DNA of 43,549 bases from a virus, in the IMG/VR virus record IMGVR_UViG_3300025703_000011, positions 1 through 43,549 of that record; one strand, 5' to 3'. Shown piece after piece: positions 3,479 to 37,955 of the stretch; within the stretch, counting starts at the first letter, position 1, and each line of letters starts with the position of its first letter. The notes below the pieces were generated by a model. That model had not been told where the DNA came from and ran no database searches. It worked only from the letters and a program-made list of their open reading frames with translations. The position numbers and the translations under genes were made by a program.

Positions 3479-4231
3479 ATGACGAAGTTTAAGATAGGCG
3501 ATAGGGTCAATATACCCGACGACTGTATCGTTAACTACGAGAGAGGGGCTACAGTCGGTACCGTAATAGAGATTATGAGTTCCGGCGTGAGAGTGCGTGA
3601 GGATGGAAGAGGCGATGATGGGGGCTGCTATGGACACGATTACACACTAATTAAGGAAGGAGGATCTATGAAGCGGAAGTTTAGAATTGGCGATAGGGTA
3701 AAAGTTATTAAGAGCGAGTCAAGCCCCGGGAGAAAACACATGGGGACTCAAGAATATGTGGGTATGACGGGCGCTATTACCGTTAATGATGGTTCTGGGG
3801 CTCACAGTATCAAGATAGAAGGGGTTGAAAGTTGGTGGGCAGAATGGGAATTACAACTAATAGGTAAAGGAGCAAAGAAAGTTATGGGTAAGAGGACATT
3901 TAAGCAATTAAAAGATAACCAGGCTATACGCAAGGGCGCTATCTGGCAGGAAGAGTGCGAGGACGGTACACAGCCGTACGCGCTCATTACACCCGAGTTG
4001 TGTAAGTTTGAAAGCGATGACCGAGAGTACAGTCAGCCCTGTAGGGAAATAATCGAGCAGAACCCTACGTGGTTTGTTGAGGTATTCCCGGCTAGTGAGG
4101 CATTTTTGACCAAGGAAGAGCTTGCTACTTTCAGGCAGTTTGTGAAGGCTCAGCAACATTTTAAGAAAGTAACCACTCCCAAGGTTGAAGTTCAACGAGT
4201 AAAGCGCAAGTACACGAAGAAGACTAAATAG
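3479..4231 (+). CDS. Multi-domain KOW/SH3-like protein with internal start sites
   Basis: 250 residues. Two tandem SH3/KOW-like modules begin KFKIGDRVNIP (residue 3) and KFRIGDRVKVI (residue 66). A third domain starting MGKRTFKQLKDNQAI contains IEQNPTWFVEVFP. Each later module begins at an in-frame Met preceded by purine-rich sequence. The best is AAGGAGGATCT before ATG 3669, a textbook Shine-Dalgarno that also encodes KEGGS. The ORF may therefore yield full-length and shorter products. The third domain is related to the C-terminal half of the gene at 5401. The Lys/Arg-rich tail could bind nucleic acid. Confidence 0.65.
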   Translation: MTKFKIGDRVNIPDDCIVNYERGATVGTVIEIMSSGVRVREDGRGDDGGCYGHDYTLIKEGGSMKRKFRIGDRVKVIKSESSPGRKHMGTQEYVGMTGAITVNDGSGAHSIKIEGVESWWAEWELQLIGKGAKKVMGKRTFKQLKDNQAIRKGAIWQEECEDGTQPYALITPELCKFESDDREYSQPCREIIEQNPTWFVEVFPASEAFLTKEELATFRQFVKAQQHFKKVTTPKVEVQRVKRKYTKKTK

Positions 4232-4835: not shown

Positions 4836-5401
4836 TGGCGGCCTATACGGGTTATTGTGGTTGCCCCTCCTGTTATCCGCATTACCAGAGACATATTATG
4901 GAGCAGGAAATAGCGTACCGCGTAGCCCGGGAGGTGGAGTACGAAATGCGCCGGATGATGATGCCACGGATGCAGTACTACTACGAGACTTCAATAATGG
5001 GTATGGATGTCGCAAAGCCAACTGACACCGTGGAGTGCATTGGTAAGTGGCAGTCCGTAGCTATGCGCGAACAGGGATACTGGGAAACACGAGCCTGGAA
5101 TCAACAGTATATATCCTATTCTGAGACGAGCGCTTGGAATAAGGAAGCAATTAAGCAACTAATGGCTGGAGAGCCAAAGAAAGAGAGTAATAACATGGGC
5201 GGAATAGTAAAACGAATCAAGGCTTTAGGCCTCAACAAAGCAGACAAATTGTTACGCAAGTATCAGATTGTCGATAACGCTGGGGACTTGACCTCTGACG
5301 GTAAAGAAGCACTGCTTAATCTGTTGTTTGAGCAGAATAAGACAGCCCTGGTAGCTAAGTTAACAGAGGTGGAAGCTAACGAGAAGCAAAGCAAGAAGTA
5401 A
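4835..5401 (+). CDS. Hypothetical protein, 188 aa, Cys-rich N-terminus
   Basis: I chose ATG 4835 (overlapping the previous stop, 8 nt after AGGAGAAGG) over an upstream in-frame ATG at 4808. The N-terminus MAAYTGYCGCPSCYP has three closely spaced Cys, suggesting a metal site. A Met/Arg/Tyr-rich helical segment follows (VEYEMRRMMMPRMQYYYE). The last 65 residues, from a Met at about residue 122 (MGGIVKRIKALGLNKADKLLRKY), form a separate basic helical domain with a shuffled 'TSDGKEALLNLLFEQN' helix. That second part could be translated separately. Confidence 0.6.
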   Translation: MAAYTGYCGCPSCYPHYQRHIMEQEIAYRVAREVEYEMRRMMMPRMQYYYETSIMGMDVAKPTDTVECIGKWQSVAMREQGYWETRAWNQQYISYSETSAWNKEAIKQLMAGEPKKESNNMGGIVKRIKALGLNKADKLLRKYQIVDNAGDLTSDGKEALLNLLFEQNKTALVAKLTEVEANEKQSKK

Positions 5402-6722: not shown

Positions 6723-7203
6723 ATCGAAAGGGTTAAAAGATCCCTCTACCTTGATTTGTCCCGACTGTGCAGGGACGAGGTTCCGCGTAAATTACAATAA
6801 GGTGGTGTGCGTGAATTGCCAGTGGACCGAGAAAAGGGGTAGCAATAAGTACGGCGCTAAACGGGCTGAGTTTAAGGGAAAACATTATGATAGTAAATAT
6901 GAGGCCTCGGTTGCTCAGGAGTTAGACCTACGTTTGCAGCTCAACGACATACTGGAAGTCATCCCCCAGTTCAAAATTGAGTGCTATGCCTATCGTGAGG
7001 ATGGCACTAAGGCCTTCCTAGTCAAACATAAGGTAGATTTCCGGATCCAGCTCAAAGACGGCTCATACGAGCTCATAGAGGCTAAGGGGCAGGAAACTGA
7101 TGACTATAAGTGGAGACGGAAGTTTCTGGAGCTAATATGGCTACCAGCACACCCCGACTATACTTATACGGTGGTTAAGCAATCGAAAGGTTGGCGTGGA
7201 TGA
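6712..7203 (+). CDS. DUF1064-like PD-(D/E)XK nuclease with zinc ribbon
   Basis: I prefer TTG 6712, which follows GAGAGG; an ATG at 6682 in the same frame lies deep in the previous gene. A zinc ribbon (CPDC...CVNC) is followed by a DUF1064-type domain. Recognisable pieces are NKYGAKRAEFKGKHYDSKYEASVAQEL, then VDFRI and the EAKGQ strand (Asp...Glu-x-Lys, the PD-(D/E)XK metal site), then YKWRRKFLEL. DUF1064 proteins are common in phage replication/recombination cassettes and are thought to act as branched-DNA or endonucleases; the exact substrate is inference. Confidence 0.75.
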   Translation: MYTESKGLKDPSTLICPDCAGTRFRVNYNKVVCVNCQWTEKRGSNKYGAKRAEFKGKHYDSKYEASVAQELDLRLQLNDILEVIPQFKIECYAYREDGTKAFLVKHKVDFRIQLKDGSYELIEAKGQETDDYKWRRKFLELIWLPAHPDYTYTVVKQSKGWRG

Positions 7204-7430
7204 AAAGCGATAAAGATATAGTAGACGAGATCCTAGCACTTAATCGGTACCAAAGTACCCTGCGGAGGACACGGGGTAGGTTAGCTGGTGGTGCTGACTA
7301 TGCGGGCAGGAAGTCGCTCAGTGTGGATATACGCAATAATCAAAGAGACATAGCGACCCGGCAGGATATACTGCGGAAGCGTGGGCATGTGATACCAGAA
7401 GGCAAAGTTGTGCCGGAGACTGTGCTATAG
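7200..7430 (+). CDS. Hypothetical helical protein, 76 aa
   Basis: ATG 7200 overlaps the previous TGA. Charged helical protein (MKSDKDIVDEILALNRYQS, then Arg-rich segments) with a coiled-coil look and no known motif. It is the last gene of the left + strand cassette before the convergent junction with the late genes. Confidence 0.55.
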   Translation: MKSDKDIVDEILALNRYQSTLRRTRGRLAGGADYAGRKSLSVDIRNNQRDIATRQDILRKRGHVIPEGKVVPETVL

Positions 7431-7566
7431 TAGTAACTATCTTTTAACAAAAGGACACCAATGGAGCAGTTGTCCACCCCTGTTGCTGCTCACTGATTTT
7501 GATTGCATTTAAGCTACAATTTGAAGCTATGCCCATCCCTAAGCACTGGGCTGCAAAGCACCGTTA
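7431..7566. other. Convergent junction between early and late gene blocks
   Basis: 136 bp where left-cassette genes (+) meet the ends of the late operon (-). It contains an imperfect hairpin, GAGCAG (7463-7468) with CTGCTC (7486-7491), but no convincing U-run. Two tiny + strand ORFs are present: ATG 7461, 11 codons, after AAAAGGACACCA; and ATG 7529, 13 codons, 8 nt after a TACAAT box. Neither can be supported as a gene. Confidence 0.4.
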
Positions 7567-7818
7567 TTAGGCTACGGGTACTACTGGAAGTGCCTCTACT
7601 GGTACAGCAGCTGGCACAACGACAACAGGTGTAGTAGCTACGACTGTGGGCTGAGACTGTCGGACTAGGTTATAGACTGCTGATAGACCAGCTCCTACGG
7701 CTCCAGCGATAGCTGTCTTGTTCCAGTTGACTGTTGGTACTACCGTTAGGTAGACGACTGCGGCTTCTACGAAGGTAACTGCTACCTTCTCTGCTAATTG
7801 CTGATATTTAGTGGTCAT
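7567..7818 (-). CDS. Holin-like small membrane protein
   Basis: 83 residues. Two hydrophobic stretches are present: about 11-28 (VAVTFVEAAVVYLTVVP) and about 34-50 (TAIAGAVGAGLSAVYNLV). A basic stretch and a Val/Ala/Pro tail follow. Length, topology and position at the end of the late operon, near the lysozyme gene, fit a phage holin. No family signature is decisive. Confidence 0.5.
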   Translation of the reverse strand: MTTKYQQLAEKVAVTFVEAAVVYLTVVPTVNWNKTAIAGAVGAGLSAVYNLVRQSQPTVVATTPVVVVPAAVPVEALPVVPVA

Positions 7819-35072: not shown

Positions 35073-35101
35073 TTGCCTTAAAACAGAATCGTTGGTAAAC
35101 T
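35073..35101 (+). promoter_or_regulatory. Promoter of tRNA operon 1 (TTGCCT-17-TAAACT, extended -10)
   Basis: -35 TTGCCT at 35073-35078, 17-bp spacer ending TG-G, and -10 TAAACT at 35096-35101. Exactly 6 nt (AAGCCC) separate it from ATG 35108, so the predicted +1 is the A of the leader start codon. The same geometry precedes leaders 2 and 3. Confidence 0.75.
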
Positions 35102-35107
35102 AAGCCC

Positions 35108-35179
35108 ATGTTTACAAGATGCACAGTCAAACCGATAAATAAGCGCGATATTCATGTCTCGCTGGTTTCTGCTGCATAA
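35108..35179 (+). CDS. Attenuator leader peptide 1 (controls the 13-tRNA operon)
   Basis: 23 codons and TAA. The core RCTVKPINKRDIHV spells the downstream tRNAs. AGA is for Arg(UCU), TGC for Cys and GTC for Val. AAA is for Lys(UUU) and AAG for Lys(CUU). CCG is for Pro. ATA is for Ile(UAU) and ATT for Ile(GAU). AAT is for Asn, CGC for Arg(UCG), GAT for Asp and CAT for His. All 12 non-Trp tRNAs of the operon have a codon. No Shine-Dalgarno is possible because the mRNA starts at the ATG. The CGCTGGT at 35160-35166, in the last codons, can pair with the terminator's 5' arm. A ribosome reaching the stop would cover it; one stalled on a control codon would not. Confidence 0.85.
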   Translation: MFTRCTVKPINKRDIHVSLVSAA

Positions 35180-35227
35180 GTAAAAGTACATTAGTTAAAC
35201 AACTTACACTTCTTATAGAGACCAGCG
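35160..35227 (+). promoter_or_regulatory. Antiterminator of tRNA operon 1
   Basis: CGCTGGTTT (35160-35168) pairs with AGACCAGCG (35219-35227), 9 bp including one G-U. This is mutually exclusive with the terminator, because the same AGACCAGCG is the terminator's 5' arm. CGCTGGT is an exact copy of the terminator's 3' arm core. Confidence 0.75.
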
Positions 35228-35250
35228 CTTCAATCCCGCTGGTCTTTTCT
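35219..35250 (+). terminator. Intrinsic terminator (attenuator) before tRNA-Trp
   Basis: AGACCAGCG (35219-35227), loop CTTCAATCC, CGCTGGTCT (35237-35245) and then TTTTCT. The first tRNA of the operon begins 3 nt after it, so the hairpin decides whether the operon is made. Confidence 0.85.
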
Positions 35251-35252
35251 AT

Positions 35253-35323
35253 ATCCGGATGGCTGTAGAGCCTATAAGCCTCCAAAACTTAAAAACTGGG
35301 TGCAACTCCTAGTCCGGGTGCCA
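35253..35323 (+). tRNA. tRNA-Trp(CCA)
   Basis: 71 nt with encoded CCA and discriminator G73, as usual for Trp. Acceptor ATCCGGA/TCCGGGT. Loop CTCCAAA. The anticodon stem has a C31-A39 mismatch. The D-arm is small (GGC-TGTAGA-GCC) and lacks the GG pair. First gene of operon 1 and the only one without a codon in leader 1. Confidence 0.88.
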
Positions 35324-35327
35324 ATAT

Positions 35328-35401
35328 CAGGGTATGGTGTAGTGGCAACACGTGCGGTTTGGGACCGTGAGTTGACAGTCCGATTCTGTCTTCCCTGACC
35401 A
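35328..35401 (+). tRNA. tRNA-Pro(UGG)
   Basis: 74 nt, CCA encoded. Loop TTTGGGA. Acceptor CAGGGTA/TTCCCTG starts with C1-G72, as bacterial tRNA-Pro does, with one T-T mismatch. T-loop TCCGATT. Leader 1 has CCG. Confidence 0.9.
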
Positions 35402-35404
35402 AGA

Positions 35405-35478
35405 GTCTCCATGGCTTAGCGACCGAGCAGCTGACTTTTAATCAGCCGAGGAAGGTTTGACTCCTTCTGGAGGCACCA
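35405..35478 (+). tRNA. tRNA-Lys(UUU)
   Basis: 74 nt, CCA encoded. Loop CTTTTAA in stem GCTGA/TCAGC. Acceptor GTCTCCA/TGGAGGC. Canonical T-loop TTTGACT. Leader 1 has AAA. Confidence 0.93.
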
Positions 35479-35481
35479 TAT

Positions 35482-35549
35482 GCTGCTGACGGGAGTTAAT
35501 GGGGTGTTCTAAGCCCTAAACCTGGGTTCGATACCCAGCAGCAGTTCCA
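35482..35549 (+). tRNA. tRNA-Arg(UCU), shortened D-arm
   Basis: Only 68 nt. Acceptor GCTGCTG/CAGCAGT, loop GTTCTAA in GGGGT/GCCCT, T-arm CTGGG-TTCGATA-CCCAG, CCA encoded. Just 12 nt separate acceptor and anticodon stems instead of about 19, so no proper D-stem can form. Leader 1 has AGA. Confidence 0.85.
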
Positions 35550-35550
35550 T

Positions 35551-35625
35551 GAGTCTGTAGTTTAACAGGGAAACACCTGCCTCTTAAGCAGGATAGCGTG
35601 GGGGCGGCACCCACCAGACTCTCCA
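35551..35625 (+). tRNA. tRNA-Lys(CUU)
   Basis: 75 nt, CCA encoded. Perfect acceptor GAGTCTG/CAGACTC; loop CTCTTAA in CCTGC/GCAGG. The T-loop is GGCGGCA instead of TTC-type. Leader 1 has AAG. Confidence 0.9.
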
Positions 35626-35629
35626 ATAC

Positions 35630-35703
35630 TGGGGTGTATTTCAATAGTAGAAACCTCGTCTGATACGCGAGAAACCTAGGGGCAGAACCTAGTACCCCTA
35701 CCA
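35630..35703 (+). tRNA. tRNA-Ile(GAU)
   Basis: 74 nt, CCA encoded. Loop CTGATAC. Acceptor TGGGGTG/TACCCCT with a T1-T72 mismatch. T-loop GGCAGAA. D-loop AATAGTA lacks G18. Leader 1 has ATT. Confidence 0.88.
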
Positions 35704-35707
35704 ATAA

Positions 35708-35781
35708 CGGCCATTAGTTCAATGGGAGAACGGCAGTCTTATATACTGTTAACGACAGATCGAAACTGTCATGGCCCACCA
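35708..35781 (+). tRNA. tRNA-Ile(UAU)
   Basis: 74 nt, CCA encoded. Loop CTTATAT in GCAGT/ACTGT. Acceptor CGGCCAT/ATGGCCC with a C1-C72 mismatch. It reads ATA, which most bacteria read with a lysidine-modified CAU tRNA; this gene needs no lysidine. Leader 1 has ATA. Confidence 0.88.
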
Positions 35782-35855
35782 GCCCGGTTGGTTCAATAGT
35801 AGAACGTCTGTCTTACATGCAGAAGACGAGAGTGCGATTCTTTCACTGGGTACCA
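35782..35855 (+). tRNA. tRNA-Val(UAC)
   Basis: 74 nt, CCA encoded, A73. Loop CTTACAT in TCTGT/GCAGA. Acceptor GCCCGGT/ACTGGGT. T-loop TGCGATT. Leader 1 has GTC before the block and again after CAT. Confidence 0.9.
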
Positions 35856-35856
35856 A

Positions 35857-35931
35857 AGATCCATAGCTCAACAGATAGAGTACCTGGCTTCGAACCAGAT
35901 GATGAGGGTGCAATTCCTTCTGGGTCTACCA
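35857..35931 (+). tRNA. tRNA-Arg(UCG)
   Basis: 75 nt, CCA encoded. Loop CTTCGAA. Acceptor AGATCCA/TGGGTCT. T-loop TGCAATT. It would read CGN codons. Leader 1 has CGC. Confidence 0.9.
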
Positions 35932-35936
35932 AATCT

Positions 35937-35960
35937 AAAGGTGTCTAATTCGATACCTTT
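35937..35960 (+). other. Hairpin between tRNA-Arg(UCG) and tRNA-His
   Basis: AAAGGT, a 12-nt loop containing ATTCGAT, and ACCTTT. It could be a T-arm remnant of a lost tRNA or a processing hairpin. No U-run follows. Confidence 0.4.
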
Positions 35961-35967
35961 ACAATAC

Positions 35968-36045
35968 GGTGACGGAAGACGAAGTAGACGAGTCATCGAC
36001 CTGTGAAGTCGGAGGAAGCCAGCGCACGTCTGGTCTGTCACCCCA
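35968..36045 (+). tRNA. tRNA-His(GUG)
   Basis: 78 nt including an encoded G-1 (35968) opposite C73, the His identity pair, giving an 8-bp acceptor. Loop CTGTGAA in TCGAC/GTCGG; CCA encoded. T-loop CGCACGT is irregular. Leader 1 has CAT. Confidence 0.92.
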
Positions 36046-36050
36046 AGTAT

Positions 36051-36124
36051 GACTGTGTAGCTCAATAGCAGAGCACCCGGTTGTCATCCGGAAGACGGGG
36101 GAGCGTAACCCCTTACAGTCGCCA
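36051..36124 (+). tRNA. tRNA-Asp(GUC)
   Basis: 74 nt, CCA encoded, G73 as expected for Asp. Acceptor GACTGTG/TACAGTC; loop TTGTCAT. T-loop AGCGTAA. Leader 1 has GAT. Confidence 0.9.
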
Positions 36125-36125
36125 A

Positions 36126-36200
36126 TGGCGTGTAGCTGAGTGGTAAAGCACCTCCCTGTTAAGGAGTAGATCGTCGGATCGTAACCGACCATGCCAGCCA
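36126..36200 (+). tRNA. tRNA-Asn(GUU)
   Basis: 75 nt, CCA encoded. Acceptor TGGCGTG/CATGCCA; loop CTGTTAA. T-loop ATCGTAA. Leader 1 has AAT. Confidence 0.9.
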
Positions 36201-36204
36201 TTAC

Positions 36205-36279
36205 GAGTCAGTGGCAGAACAGATATGCTACCGATTGCAAACCGGTATTAAGCAAGTGCAACTCTTGTCTGACTCTCCA
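36205..36279 (+). tRNA. tRNA-Cys(GCA)
   Basis: 75 nt, CCA encoded, U73 as CysRS requires. Acceptor GAGTCAG/CTGACTC; loop TTGCAAA with an A31-C39 mismatch. Last gene of operon 1. Its 3' end overlaps the -35 of the next promoter. Leader 1 has TGC. Confidence 0.9.
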
Positions 36280-36294
36280 TTTTTGTGTTATATT
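36265..36294 (+). promoter_or_regulatory. Promoter of tRNA operon 2 (TTGTCT-18-TATATT, extended -10)
   Basis: -35 TTGTCT at 36265-36270 lies inside tRNA-Cys. TG-T-TATATT is at 36286-36294. AAGTCT (6 nt) separates it from ATG 36301, so the predicted +1 is the start codon itself. Confidence 0.75.
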
Positions 36295-36300
36295 AAGTCT

Positions 36301-36345
36301 ATGAATTACGTAACGACCCAGCAAGCAGAAGGCACAATCGGTTAA
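36301..36345 (+). CDS. Attenuator leader peptide 2 (controls the Thr-Gly-Ala-Glu-Gln operon)
   Basis: 14 codons and TAA, MNYVTTQQAEGTIG. The core TTQQAEGT lists exactly the amino acids of the seven downstream tRNAs. ACG, ACC and ACA are for Thr. CAG is for Gln(CUG) and CAA for Gln(UUG). GCA is for Ala(UGC), GAA for Glu(UUC), and GGC and GGT for Gly. Only GAG, for Glu(CUC), has no codon. Leaderless by promoter spacing. CGGGG starts 2 nt after the stop codon and can pair with the terminator's CCCCG. Confidence 0.82.
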   Translation: MNYVTTQQAEGTIG

Positions 36346-36346
36346 C

Positions 36347-36382
36347 CGGGGTAGTTCAGCACGTTCAAAAGTAGACGCCCCG
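36347..36382 (+). promoter_or_regulatory. Antiterminator of tRNA operon 2
   Basis: CGGGGT (36347-36352) can pair with GCCCCG (36377-36382), which contains the 5' arm of the terminator. A ribosome at the leader stop codon (36343-36345) would cover CGGGG and let the terminator form. Confidence 0.65.
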
Positions 36383-36396
36383 AAAGGGGCTTTTTT
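36377..36396 (+). terminator. Intrinsic terminator (attenuator) before tRNA-Thr
   Basis: GCCCC-GAAA-GGGGC followed by six T. A compact GNRA-loop hairpin. It ends 5 nt before tRNA-Thr. Confidence 0.9.
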
Positions 36397-36401
36397 AATA
36401 G

Positions 36402-36476
36402 GCCAGGTTAGCTCAATTAGGAGAGCAATAGTTTTGTAAACTATGGACGAGGGGGCGGAGCCTTCACCTGGAGCCA
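36402..36476 (+). tRNA. tRNA-Thr(UGU)
   Basis: 75 nt, CCA encoded. Loop TTTGTAA in ATAGT/ACTAT. Acceptor GCCAGGT/ACCTGGA with a G1-A72 mismatch and G73. T-loop GGCGGAG. Leader 2 has three Thr codons. Confidence 0.88.
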
Positions 36477-36481
36477 AGTAT

Positions 36482-36555
36482 GCGTGTGTACGCTAGTGGT
36501 AGACCGCCTTCCTTCCAAGTAGGTAGCCTCAGTTCGATTCTGAGTACACGCACCA
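36482..36555 (+). tRNA. tRNA-Gly(UCC)
   Basis: 74 nt, CCA encoded. Acceptor GCGTGTG/TACACGC; loop CTTCCAA with a T30-T40 mismatch. Canonical T-arm CTCAG-TTCGATT-CTGAG. Confidence 0.9.
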
Positions 36556-36556
36556 A

Positions 36557-36631
36557 GGGGTTGTAGTTTAATGGCTAGAATAATGCGCCTGCAACGCGTA
36601 GACCACAGTTCGACTCTGTGTAACTCCACCA
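36557..36631 (+). tRNA. tRNA-Ala(UGC), with C33
   Basis: 75 nt, CCA encoded, A73. Acceptor GGGGTTG/TAACTCC contains G3-U70, the tRNA-Ala identity pair. Counting from the D-stem gives stem ATGCG/CGCGT and loop CCTGCAA, so the anticodon is UGC with C at position 33. A one-base shift would read GCA (Cys) but leaves a 3-nt variable loop. The GCA codon in leader 2 supports Ala. Confidence 0.82.
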
Positions 36632-36632
36632 A

Positions 36633-36651
36633 TTACCGGGAATCCCGGTAA
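36633..36651 (+). other. Perfect inverted repeat between tRNA-Ala and tRNA-Glu
   Basis: TTACCGGGA-T-TCCCGGTAA type palindrome, followed by AAAACAAAAG. No U-run on either strand, so it is more likely a processing or spacer hairpin than a terminator. Confidence 0.5.
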
Positions 36652-36663
36652 AAACAAAAGTAG

Positions 36664-36738
36664 CGCCCCTTCGTCTACTGGCTAGGATAGATGTTTTTCA
36701 GGCATCGGAAGAGAGATCGAAACTCTCAGGGGTGACCA
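36664..36738 (+). tRNA. tRNA-Glu(UUC)
   Basis: 75 nt, CCA encoded. Acceptor CGCCCCT/AGGGGTG; loop TTTTCAG in GATGT/GCATC. T-loop ATCGAAA. Leader 2 has GAA. Confidence 0.9.
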
Positions 36739-36813
36739 CAGCGCATGGACAACTGGCTAAGTCGGTTCCCTCTCAAGGAGCAGAAGTGGGATCGTAACCC
36801 GCTGCGCTGACCA
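36739..36813 (+). tRNA. tRNA-Glu(CUC)
   Basis: 75 nt, CCA encoded, directly abutting the previous tRNA. Perfect acceptor CAGCGCA/TGCGCTG; loop CTCTCAA. T-loop ATCGTAA. Reads GAG, the one codon of this operon absent from leader 2. Confidence 0.9.
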
Positions 36814-36814
36814 A

Positions 36815-36893
36815 TGGCAAGTAGACAAACTGGGAAAGTCGTCTGCCTTTGAAGCAGGAGTTTATGTAGGTTCGAAGCCTACCTTGCCAGCCA
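36815..36893 (+). tRNA. tRNA-Gln(UUG)
   Basis: 79 nt, CCA encoded, G73. Perfect acceptor TGGCAAG/CTTGCCA; loop CTTTGAA in TCTGC/GCAGG. T-arm GTAGG-TTCGAAG-CCTAC. Leader 2 has CAA. Confidence 0.92.
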
Positions 36894-36896
36894 TAA

Positions 36897-36970
36897 TCGG
36901 AGATCGTCTAATGGTAGGACACGTGGTTCTGAGCCATGCAATCTAGGTTCGAGCCCTAGTCACCGAGCCA
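36897..36970 (+). tRNA. tRNA-Gln(CUG)
   Basis: 74 nt, CCA encoded, G73. Acceptor TCGGAGA/TCACCGA with an A5-A68 mismatch; loop TTCTGAG. T-loop TTCGAGC. Leader 2 has CAG. Last gene of operon 2. Confidence 0.9.
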
Positions 36971-36979
36971 AGTCACTTA

Positions 36980-36988
36980 TGCTACAAT
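36980..36988 (+). promoter_or_regulatory. Extended -10 promoter (TGCTACAAT) with +1 at the tRNA-Met 5' end
   Basis: TG-C-TACAAT followed by AAACAC (6 nt) and then T36995, the first base of mature tRNA-Met. With the 6-nt spacing used elsewhere here, transcription would begin at the mature 5' end and need no 5' processing. No leader ORF or terminator intervenes. Confidence 0.65.
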
Positions 36989-36994
36989 AAACAC

Positions 36995-37070
36995 TGCGGG
37001 TAGGACAAAGTAGATAAGTCGGCGGCCTCATAAACCGTAGGACTGGGTGCAGATCCCAGACCCGCAACCA
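36995..37070 (+). tRNA. tRNA-Met(CAU), elongator type
   Basis: 76 nt, CCA encoded. Acceptor TGCGGGT/ACCCGCA with a paired T1-A72, and no three G-C pairs at 29-31/39-41, so not an initiator. Loop CTCATAA with a C31-A39 mismatch. Since tRNA-Ile(UAU) is also present, Met is more likely than lysidine-Ile. It is the only tRNA with a private promoter and no attenuator. Confidence 0.82.
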
Positions 37071-37075
37071 TTTTG

Positions 37076-37084
37076 TGATATAAT
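37076..37084 (+). promoter_or_regulatory. Extended -10 promoter (TGATATAAT) of a small RNA
   Basis: A perfect TG-A-TATAAT 6 nt after tRNA-Met, then ATAGAT, predicting a start at A37091. No start codon lies at the start site, unlike leaders 1-3. Confidence 0.65.
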
Positions 37085-37090
37085 ATAGAT

Positions 37091-37210
37091 AGTCAAACCG
37101 AGTCTCGTAGCGCAAGGTAGCTCGTACCTTCGAGCGGCGTAGCAGGTAAAGTCGGTTTCCTCCCATAGACAAGGATAGGTTAGCGCCTAACACCCTCTAT
37201 GGGCTTTTTT
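37091..37210 (+). ncRNA. Structured small RNA of unknown function
   Basis: About 120 nt with its own promoter and terminator. A closing stem AAACCGA (37095-37101)/TCGGTTT (37152-37158) encloses CTCG/CGAG and hairpin AAGGTA-GCTCG-TACCTT (37114-37130). Its first 11 nt (AGTCAAACCGA) repeat the sequence of four control codons in leader 1 (35125-35135), and its TCGGTTT could in principle pair with that leader. A 16-codon open frame in the same register (from 37093) lacks a start codon. It is neither a tRNA nor a known phage RNA class that I recognise. Confidence 0.6.
37162..37210 (+). terminator. Intrinsic terminator of the small RNA
   Basis: CCCATAGA (37162-37169) pairs with TCTATGGG (37196-37203), enclosing GTTAG-CGC-CTAAC, and is followed by CTTTTTT. 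It ends 1-2 nt before the next promoter, insulating operon 3. Confidence 0.85.
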
Positions 37211-37211
37211 G

Positions 37212-37220
37212 TGGTATACT
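37212..37220 (+). promoter_or_regulatory. Promoter of tRNA operon 3 (TGGTATACT, extended -10)
   Basis: TG-G-TATACT followed by ATTTCC (6 nt) and ATG 37227, the same geometry as operons 1 and 2. It sits directly on the U-run of the preceding terminator. Confidence 0.75.
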
Positions 37221-37226
37221 ATTTCC

Positions 37227-37286
37227 ATGAAAGCCTTTTATTCATTGTCGAGTCTAGTACTCTCCGACAAAGGAGTAGCTTTCTAG
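37227..37286 (+). CDS. Attenuator leader peptide 3 (controls the Phe-Tyr-Leu-Ser operon)
   Basis: 19 codons and TAG, MKAFYSLSSLVLSDKGVAF. The run FYSLSSLVLS contains exactly the four amino acids of the seven downstream tRNAs. TTT is for Phe and TAT for Tyr. TTG is for Leu(CAA), and CTA and CTC for Leu(UAG). TCA, TCG and TCC are for Ser(UGA), and AGT for Ser(GCU). Only TTA, for Leu(UAA), is missing. Leaderless by promoter spacing. The last codons GGA GTA GCT TTC TAG form the antiterminator strand. An upstream TACTC/GAGTA hairpin could sequester it. Confidence 0.85.
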   Translation: MKAFYSLSSLVLSDKGVAF

Positions 37287-37341
37287 TACCCTGTGTAGGG
37301 CGTACACCATAAGGTCCTCCAACCTAGAAAGAAGCTTCTCC
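37272..37341 (+). promoter_or_regulatory. Antiterminator of tRNA operon 3
   Basis: CTTTCTAG (37279-37286, end of the leader ORF) pairs with CTAGAAAG (37324-37331), 8 bp. GGAG (37272-37275) can extend to CTCC (37338-37341) across an internal loop, disrupting the terminator's 5' arm (37333-37340). A competing hairpin TACTC (37258-37262)/GAGTA (37273-37277) lies within the ORF. Confidence 0.65.
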
Positions 37342-37361
37342 TTCAAACGAGAGGCTTTTTT
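37333..37361 (+). terminator. Intrinsic terminator (attenuator) before tRNA-Phe
   Basis: AGCTTCTC (37333-37340), loop CTTCAAAC, GAGAGGCT (37349-37356), then a run of T to 37361. It ends 3 nt before tRNA-Phe. Confidence 0.88.
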
Positions 37362-37364
37362 CAT

Positions 37365-37439
37365 GTCTTCGTAGTGTAGTGGTCTGCACATCTGCTTGAA
37401 GAACAGAAGGTCTTAGTTCAATTCTAAGCGTTGACACCA
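37365..37439 (+). tRNA. tRNA-Phe(GAA)
   Basis: 75 nt, CCA encoded, A73. Loop TTGAAGA with a C31-A39 mismatch. Acceptor GTCTTCG/CGTTGAC has two T-T mismatches (4-69, 5-68), the weakest acceptor of the set. T-arm CTTAG-TTCAATT-CTAAG. Leader 3 has TTT. Confidence 0.85.
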
Positions 37440-37443
37440 ACAA

Positions 37444-37526
37444 GGCACGTTCGTATAGCGGCAATTACTCCGGGCTGTAAACTCGGCGCTTCGGCTTCCT
37501 AGGTTCGAGTCCTAGACGTGTCACCA
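37444..37526 (+). tRNA. tRNA-Tyr(GUA)
   Basis: 83 nt, class II with a short variable arm GC-TTCG-GC, CCA encoded. Acceptor GGCACGT/ACGTGTC; loop CTGTAAA in CCGGG/CTCGG. T-loop TTCGAGT. Leader 3 has TAT. Confidence 0.92.
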
Positions 37527-37527
37527 A

Positions 37528-37604
37528 GCCACTATAGGCCAACTGGCAGAGCCGGGGGGCTCAAAACCCCCTGATTGTACGTTCGAATCGTACTAGTGGT
37601 ACCA
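37528..37604 (+). tRNA. tRNA-Leu(CAA), class I form
   Basis: 77 nt, CCA encoded. Acceptor GCCACTA/TAGTGGT; anticodon stem GGGGG/CCCCC; loop CTCAAAA. The variable loop is only 5 nt (TGATT), whereas bacterial tRNA-Leu has a long variable arm. T-arm GTACG-TTCGAAT-CGTAC. Leader 3 has TTG. Confidence 0.85.
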
Positions 37605-37608
37605 ATAA

Positions 37609-37684
37609 GCTCTCGTATCCCAATGGTAGAGGACTCCGGCTTAGACCCGGATCAGTGTCAGTTCGAGTCTGACCGAGAGTACCA
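37609..37684 (+). tRNA. tRNA-Leu(UAG), class I form
   Basis: 76 nt, CCA encoded. Acceptor GCTCTCG/CGAGAGT; anticodon stem TCCGG/CCGGA; loop CTTAGAC. The variable loop is 5 nt (TCAGT), again not the long arm of bacterial tRNA-Leu. T-arm GTCAG-TTCGAGT-CTGAC. Leader 3 has CTA and CTC. Confidence 0.85.
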
Positions 37685-37770
37685 GCTCAGTTGGCGAAAG
37701 GGGAAACGCTGTCGGCTTAAACCCGACTGTCTAACAAGACTTATAGGTTCGAGTCCTATACTGAGTACCA
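37685..37770 (+). tRNA. tRNA-Leu(UAA), class II
   Basis: 86 nt, abutting the previous tRNA. Normal long variable arm TGTCT-AACA-AGACT. Acceptor GCTCAGT/ACTGAGT; loop CTTAAAC in GTCGG/CCGAC; CCA encoded, A73. The contrast with its two class I neighbours is clear. Confidence 0.92.
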
Positions 37771-37771
37771 A

Positions 37772-37862
37772 GGTAGATTAAGCAGCTGCATGGAGCGGCG
37801 ACTGGCTTTGAATACCAGGCTACATGAAAGTGTACGGGGGTCGGGTCCTCAATCTACCGCCA
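37772..37862 (+). tRNA. tRNA-Ser(UGA)
   Basis: 91 nt, class II with variable arm TACA...TGTA, G73 as for Ser, CCA encoded. Perfect acceptor GGTAGAT/ATCTACC. Loop TTTGAAT with a C31-A39 mismatch. Leader 3 has TCA, TCG and TCC. Confidence 0.9.
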
Positions 37863-37865
37863 AAT

Positions 37866-37949
37866 GGAGGGTGAACGGTCTAGGAGATCGGCTCGCCCGC
37901 TAAGCGAAGCGCTCGAAAGAGTGGGTTTCGATTACTCCGCCCTCCGCCA
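37866..37949 (+). tRNA. tRNA-Ser(GCU), with C33
   Basis: 84 nt, class II, variable arm GCTC-GAAA-GAGT, G73, CCA encoded. Acceptor GGAGGGT/GCCCTCC. Loop CCGCTAA has C33 in place of the near-invariant U33. Leader 3 has AGT. Last tRNA of the array. Confidence 0.88.
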
Positions 37950-37955
37950 TAAGAG

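Follow-up and report, generated by a model that had tools for sequence, protein, structure and literature searches.

Why phages carry transfer RNA (tRNA) genes has been debated for 50 years, with codon compensation set against the replacement of tRNAs destroyed by host defenses. IMG/VR record IMGVR_UViG_3300025703_000011 (43.5 kb; "the window" refers to this whole stretch of DNA) raises a narrower question: why do its three tRNA operons each begin with a promoter, a short open reading frame (ORF), and an intrinsic terminator? These leader ORFs have just 14–23 codons, and each contains codons for nearly all of the tRNAs in the operon behind it. From the sequences of the window and of five other phages, we are confident that these units are ribosome-mediated transcription attenuators that control phage tRNA operons. 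The three units lie where a preliminary description of the window had placed them, and a blind scan (see below) recovers all three. Their features are listed below. Segment 2 is the part of each unit that can pair with the 5' arm of the terminator (segment 3), and the terminator itself is formed by segments 3 and 4.

35073..35101, + strand: promoter of operon 1 (TTGCCT, 17 nucleotides (nt), TAAACT), recognized by its sequence and -10 spacing; the -10 box ends 6 nt upstream of the leader ATG
35108..35179, + strand: leader ORF 1, MFTRCTVKPINKRDIHVSLVSAA, with codons for 12 of the 13 tRNAs of operon 1
35160..35169, + strand: segment 2 of attenuator 1, CGCTGGTTTC; antiterminator pairing with the terminator's 5' arm, P = 0.014 versus shuffled sequences
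35218..35248, + strand: intrinsic terminator 1, GAGACCAGCG...CGCTGGTCTTTT
35253..36279, + strand: operon 1, 13 tRNAs: Trp-CCA, Pro-UGG, Lys-UUU, Arg-UCU, Lys-CUU, Ile-GAU, Ile-UAU, Val-UAC, Arg-UCG, His-GUG, Asp-GUC, Asn-GUU, Cys-GCA
36289..36294, + strand: -10 box of operon 2, TATATT, 6 nt upstream of the leader ATG
36301..36345, + strand: leader ORF 2, MNYVTTQQAEGTIG, with codons for 6 of the 7 tRNAs and 5 of the 5 amino acids of operon 2
36346..36351, + strand: segment 2 of attenuator 2, CCGGGG, immediately 3' of the stop codon; pairs with CGCCCCG (P = 0.12 alone; P = 0.016 for its L002 orthologue)
36377..36396, + strand: intrinsic terminator 2, GCCCCGAAAGGGGCTTTTTT
36402..36970, + strand: operon 2, 7 tRNAs: Thr-UGU, Gly-UCC, Ala-UGC, Glu-UUC, Glu-CUC, Gln-UUG, Gln-CUG
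36983..37071, + strand: tRNA-Met-CAU (36996-37071) with its own -10 box, TACAAT (36983-36988), and without an attenuator
37215..37220, + strand: -10 box of operon 3, TATACT, 6 nt upstream of the leader ATG
37227..37286, + strand: leader ORF 3, MKAFYSLSSLVLSDKGVAF, with codons for all of the amino acids of operon 3 (Phe, Tyr, Leu, Ser)
37269..37286, + strand: segment 2 of attenuator 3, AAAGGAGTAGCTTTCTAG; pairs with AGAAGCTTCTCCTT, P = 0.0035
37331..37361, + strand: intrinsic terminator 3, GAAGCTTCTC...GAGAGGCTTTTTT
37365..37949, + strand: operon 3, 7 tRNAs: Phe-GAA, Tyr-GUA, Leu-CAA, Leu-UAG, Leu-UAA, Ser-UGA, Ser-GCU

The window is a tailed-phage record, with a terminase, a portal-sized gene, a capsid-like protein, and a GH25 endolysin. 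Its 28 tRNA genes lie at 35.07–37.95 kb on the + strand and adjoin the terminase, portal, and capsid genes, which identifies the cluster as a phage tRNA array. With default settings, ARAGORN reports 17 tRNAs; the count of 28 comes from Rfam, relaxed ARAGORN searches, and inspection of each anticodon arm. The array consists of operon 1 (13 tRNAs), operon 2 (7), a single tRNA-Met, and operon 3 (7). Together these tRNAs cover all 20 amino acids, and they cover all 61 codons if the tRNAs with U34 read entire four-codon boxes. There are neither synthetases nor transporters inside the operons. ARAGORN leaves two tRNAs ambiguous between Cys and Ala. By orthologues and identity elements, the last tRNA of operon 1 is assigned to Cys (it has U73) and the third tRNA of operon 2 to Ala (it has G3:U70, and Ala-UGC is at the equivalent place in other phages), so the TGC codon of leader 1 and the GCA codon of leader 2 are cognate. 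Separately, in all six of the cassettes considered below, tRNA-Ser(GCU) (37866-37950 in the window) carries C33 where U33 is near-universal (loop CCGCTAA); this is possibly relevant to nuclease resistance.

How well do the leaders match their own operons? Leader 1 accounts for 12 of 13 tRNAs (there is no Trp codon), leader 2 for 6 of 7 (there is no GAG for Glu-CUC), and leader 3 for 7 of 7, or for 6 of 7 if Leu-UAA is barred from reading UUG. Our recount of 24–25 of 27 tRNAs thus agrees with the 24 of 27 (12/13, 6/7, and 6/7) of the preliminary description. We also ran the permutation test that it had proposed. Under a codon-usage null, coverage had a mean of 12.9 and a maximum of 24, and a coverage of 25 was reached in 0 of 200,000 draws. 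When amino acids were shuffled between operons, the observed number of own-operon codons was equaled in 1 of 200,000 shuffles. The strong match to the own operon therefore stands, but the idea that leader codons are read by their own operon's tRNAs only was an overstatement: 33 of the 53 codons in the window's leaders are own-operon codons. The others are mostly in the 3' part of the ORF, which forms the antiterminator.

The preliminary description had also named a result that would refute it, namely relatives whose leader codons do not track their tRNA content, and its proposal withstood this comparison. Codons track tRNAs across six phages with four different partitions of the tRNAs into operons. 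The comparison set comprises the window, L002, L003, G001, G044, and G043, all of which are metagenomic contigs, and includes 14 terminator-bearing leaders. We found L002 and L003 by a terminase search (their terminases are 82% and 76% identical to the window's, and both carry the array), G001 by a DNA pattern for leader 3, and G044 (L114) and G043 (L113) by a pattern for tRNA-Ser. These five other phages have 11 further leaders of the same design.

L002 and G001 partition their tRNAs into operons just as the window does, and their leaders match. Operon 2 of L003 has lost its leader and is fused to operon 1. The remaining leader 1, KTICQPTNKDAQPEAKADLT, has gained codons for Gln, Glu, and Ala, and 19 of its 20 codons correspond to tRNAs of the fused operon. 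Codons for the amino acids of operon 2 (Thr, Gly, Ala, Glu, and Gln) account for 9 of these 20 codons, versus 11 of 59 in the other leader 1s (P = 0.02). G044 has two operons (W, P, K, I, R, Met, V, T, G, A, E and F, Y, C, L, S, H, D, N, Q). Its first leader, VEFVTAVMKEGTPRKEVVG, has 18 own codons out of 19 and includes an internal AUG, and its second leader, KALCQQLSHYQSDYNFDSIVVGV, names all nine amino acids of its operon. In G043, tRNA-Trp and tRNA-Pro have shifted to the second (Phe-type) operon, and the leader of that operon, KHLCNQQPQPFSLNDYWVGA, has codons for each of its 11 amino acids, including UGG and two CCG codons.

The amino acids that switch operons (Cys, His, Asp, Asn, Gln, and Pro) show the same effect. 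When the tRNA is in the Phe-type operon, there are 18 such codons in the Phe-type leader versus 0 in the other leader; when it is not, there are 2 versus 39. Among the 14 leaders, an internal AUG is found only in G044_0, whose operon contains tRNA-Met, and UGG is found only in G043_1, whose operon contains tRNA-Trp. Overall, 187 of 258 codons are own codons, as compared to a mean of 102 and a maximum of 171 in 100,000 shuffles of the labels, but pooled P values overstate the certainty because related phages are not independent and are counted repeatedly. The window alone and G044 with G043 alone (50 of 62 own codons) each give a chance probability of around 1 in 100,000 or less. The match also depends on the reading frame: in 11 leaders, 137 of 196 in-frame codons are own codons, versus 71 of 196 in the +1 frame and 77 of 196 in the +2 frame. 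A chance codon match is ruled out by the three null models and this frame control. As a separate observation, operon 1 of G001 has an extra tRNA-Gln(UUG) without an encoded CCA (L023 8668-8741), and leader 1 of G001 has a CAG codon, which the window and L002 lack in their leader 1s.

If the ORFs are leader peptides of attenuators, the RNA should have two alternative folds. In all 14 terminator-bearing leaders, a segment near the leader's stop codon (-23 to +11), where a ribosome at that codon would cover it, pairs with the 5' arm of the terminator. Tested against dinucleotide shuffles, 11 leaders together give a combined P of 1.7e-12, and the other three have P values of 0.0025, 0.004, and 0.006. 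Because both use segment 3, the antiterminator and the terminator are mutually exclusive. The sequences of segments 2, 3, and 4 vary wholly between phages (for leader 1, e.g., CGCTGGTTTC, AGGCTTCT, AAGGCGG, and CGGTTCTTGG), and their three-way complementarity is retained. The preliminary description had proposed ribosome-mediated attenuation from the codons and terminators; the co-variation and this alternative pairing, which it lacked, both support that proposal.

We also modeled stalling by removing the RNA upstream of the ribosome's leading edge and comparing the predicted folds by ribosome position. In 14 of 14 leaders, segment 2 captures segment 3 more when the ribosome is on early codons than when it is at the stop codon (Wilcoxon P = 1e-4). 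The terminator's probability is the inverse and, again in 14 of 14 leaders, is restored with the ribosome at the stop codon. Within the zone where a stall is predicted to permit antitermination, 141 of 171 codons are own-operon codons, versus 46 of 87 past the zone (P = 1.5e-6), and other footprint sizes gave similar results. RNA pairing thus shapes the end of each ORF, and a roll-call of the operon's tRNAs shapes its front.

An intrinsic terminator lies between the ORF and the first tRNA for 14 of 15 leaders (the T-tract is weak in leader 1 of L002, and the terminator is absent from operon 1 of G043). The blind scan, which searches tRNA arrays for a terminator with a short ATG ORF upstream, recovered 13 of the 14 units across the six cassettes; it missed leader 1 of L002 because the T-tract there is weak. 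Applied to seven tRNA-rich regions of reference phages, the same scan found 5 terminators, 2 of which had an ORF upstream, and neither ORF was roll-call-like or matched the tRNAs. Among 12 promoter-proximal leaders, eight have a -10 box just 6 or 7 nt upstream of the AUG. Because of this spacing, the transcript probably starts at the AUG, that is, the messenger RNA (mRNA) is leaderless. Leader 3 of L003 and leader 3 of G001 come after tRNA-Met and have no promoter of their own there; a Shine-Dalgarno-like sequence is present. In four of the phages, tRNA-Met is upstream of leader 3 or has its own promoter, and in G044 and G043 it is within an operon; an internal AUG in the leader ORF is confined to these two phages.

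Under the proposed mechanism, RNA polymerase would start at or near the leader's AUG, with a ribosome behind it. If all of the named tRNAs are available and charged, then the ribosome would get to the stop codon and mask segment 2, the terminator (3:4) would form, and the tRNAs would not be made. If a named tRNA is scarce, then the ribosome would stall upstream and segment 2 would pair with segment 3, so that no terminator forms and the entire operon is transcribed. With each of its own operon's tRNAs listed about once, a leader should behave as an OR-gate: the loss of any tRNA on the roll-call would switch on its set. The likely purpose is to replace host tRNAs that are destroyed or depleted during infection and to shut off when the supply suffices. 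The sequences themselves show the anatomy, the codon match and how it co-varies with operon content, and the suitably placed, mutually exclusive pairing; we infer the switching itself, the leaderless mRNA, and tRNA depletion (rather than amino acid shortage) as the trigger. Phage tRNAs are reported to replace host tRNAs that are cleaved or depleted by defense systems (PMC10264068, PMC11555353), and a full tRNA set that is kept in reserve and released when ribosomes lack a particular tRNA would fit this role. Overall, we think it quite probable that this is an on-demand tRNA supply: a mobile 28-tRNA cassette in two or three operons, each silenced by a roll-call attenuator that is opened by destruction of the host's tRNA pool, present in at least four unrelated lineages and forming the first known leader-peptide-attenuated tRNA operons.

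Several observations weigh against this interpretation, besides the relatedness of the phages and the metagenomic origin of all six. First, operon 1 of the window, L002, L003, and G001 starts with tRNA-Trp, yet leader 1 of these phages has no Trp codon, and neither does leader A of G044. Similarly, the fused leader of L003 misses Gly, His, Arg, Val, and Trp. Second, the antiterminator of attenuator 2 in the window is short (the P of 0.12 given above), and at equilibrium its terminator can win even after an early stall, so switching there would need to be kinetic. Leader 1 of L002, with its weak T-tract, has a small predicted switch. Third, a separate segment 1 like that of trp is significant in only 4 of 14 leaders, and we dropped a trp-like 1:2 pause hairpin as a general feature. 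Finally, operon 1 of G043 (L115 4640-4775, - strand) has a 50-codon ORF that ends inside tRNA-Lys and has 40 own codons out of 50, including Met, but there is no poly-T terminator behind it. Operon 1 of G043 may be under a different mode of control.

Could the same attenuators instead respond to amino acid starvation, so that more tRNA is made when aminoacylation is limiting? Classical leader peptides (trp, his, phe, and ilv) sense charging, not the quantity of tRNA, and the RNA machine described here would answer to both. However, extra tRNA would cure the loss of a host tRNA and would not relieve a shortage of an amino acid, which is why we favor tRNA loss as the cause of stalling. Also, the leaders have about one codon per tRNA instead of runs of a single codon. 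This arrangement suits the loss of any one among many tRNAs, and it is better suited to the complete loss of a tRNA than to a graded drop in charging. Furthermore, the operons hold a full set of tRNAs and no synthetases or transporters. We consider a starvation signal to be possible but rather unlikely.

It is much less likely that the leaders tie tRNA synthesis to translation in general, so that any slow ribosome would do and the cognate codons merely fine-tune the response. In our model, any early stall frees the antiterminator, whether or not the codon is cognate, but the identity of the codons tracks the operon precisely over four partitions, which a sensor of translation speed would not need. 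That the ORFs encode small functional peptides, with the codon match and the terminators being incidental, is highly improbable: the peptides are recognizably homologous among relatives (e.g., ...SSLYLS... in leader 3), but their amino acid content shifts with tRNA content, their 3' halves change in sequence while retaining RNA complementarity, and chance fails to explain the match by several orders of magnitude. A T-box riboswitch or another tRNA-binding leader that senses uncharged tRNA directly would have the same output logic (tRNA-responsive antitermination upstream of a terminator), but we give it hardly any credence, as the units are 100–145 nt with an in-frame ORF and there was no T-box match from Rfam at E values of up to 0.5–1 in the six cassettes. 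The sole leader with a match in Rfam was leader 3 of L003, which aligned over the full length of the model for the Phe leader peptide, below threshold (27.8 bits, E = 0.12).

As ribosome-mediated attenuators, these units resemble those of amino acid operons (trp, his, leu, ilv, thr, and pheA) and of pheST. They share a short leader ORF with control codons, an intrinsic terminator, an antiterminator formed by the end of the leader ORF and the 5' arm of the terminator, and a stop codon positioned such that a ribosome on it would restore the terminator. In contrast, the phage units have tRNA genes as their output instead of enzymes, their leaders list 4–11 amino acids with roughly one codon apiece where the classical leaders have runs for one to three, and up to three attenuators split the whole genetic code. 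Also, the phage leaders are mostly at the probable 5' end of the transcript without a ribosome-binding site, most of them lack a trp-like segment 1, and they are located in phages. In T-box riboswitches, as here, the state of a specific tRNA controls transcription by the choice between terminator and antiterminator, but T-boxes bind the tRNA directly without any need for translation, and there is no match to them in the cassettes. Another close case, for a component of translation, is the leader-peptide attenuation of aminoacyl-tRNA synthetases (e.g., a His leader before hisZ/hisS*, PMC2965389), which controls the synthetase for one amino acid instead of tRNA genes for many; that survey does not mention tRNA genes.

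Large tRNA clusters are also found in other phages (T5-like phages, Straboviridae such as KVP40, and mycobacteriophages), where they are thought to replace depleted host tRNAs and to evade anticodon nucleases (PMC10264068, PMC11555353). None of the terms operon, transcription, and attenuation occurs in the main text of PMC10264068, and the seven reference regions that we scanned have no leader-terminator units upstream of their tRNAs. The preliminary description knew of no described example, and our searches of a collection of open-license papers likewise gave no report of leader-peptide control of tRNA operons. While leader-peptide attenuation is classical, tRNA operons as its target, a sensor with one codon per tRNA, and its occurrence in phages appear to be undescribed. 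If our interpretation is correct, then these leaders would be direct evidence, written in the genome, that these phages expect and answer a shortage of specific tRNAs, and the leader sequences predict which tRNAs would be lost jointly. A new output, tRNA itself, would be added to an RNA switch that is among the oldest known. The leaders would also be a natural multi-input sensor of tRNA loss and would open the question of why phages carry tRNAs to testing with reporters.

Is the cassette a trait of a phage family? Head genes are common to the window, L002, and L003. G001 has only the endolysin and two small proteins in common with these three phages, the overlap between G044 and G001 is the endolysin and a few small proteins, and G043 has almost nothing in common with the other five. 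Given this limited sharing, we consider the six phages to be four lineages, which differ in their head genes. Near relatives without the array include G003 (71% identical terminase) and G006 and G007 (around 80% identical to G001), so the cassette is an accessory and mobile trait. The array is also absent from about 70 capsid relatives, although many contigs among all of these relatives are fragments. We therefore ruled out a phage-family trait. Short ORFs that by eye resemble HNH-type endonucleases are in or beside the cassettes of G043 (L115 ~1430-1720), G044 (L114 ~7170-7640), and L002 (~4955-5374), and these are a possible vehicle of mobility.

Among reference phages and plasmids, homology was limited to single tRNA genes. 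Scans of genome contigs with the leader pattern and the capsid, aimed at identifying the host, gave no match, as did a scan with a degenerate leader-1 pattern and a neighbor-protein query. The leader-3 pattern matched three cassette phages and, by chance, four sites within other genes, and L109–L112, from the tRNA-Ser scan, have no tRNA array.

A few other elements lie in the arrays. Between tRNA-Met and leader 3 of the window is a separate unit (37075-37206) with a TATAAT box and an RNA of about 120 nt that is closed by AAACCGA/TCGGTTT and followed by a strong terminator; it has no ATG and no Rfam match, and it is absent from L002. L003 has an insertion of about 700 nt between tRNA-Gln(CUG) and tRNA-Met (~3480-4150, - strand) that looks structured and has no match in Rfam. 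G043 has a tRNA-like gene whose anticodon is not assignable (L115 2096-2166). Finally, G001 encodes a 75-nt RNA (L023 7275-7349) that matches transfer-messenger RNA (tmRNA) in Rfam above the cutoff (53.1 bits); the mRNA-like part is missing, and it consists of the tRNA-like domain alone.

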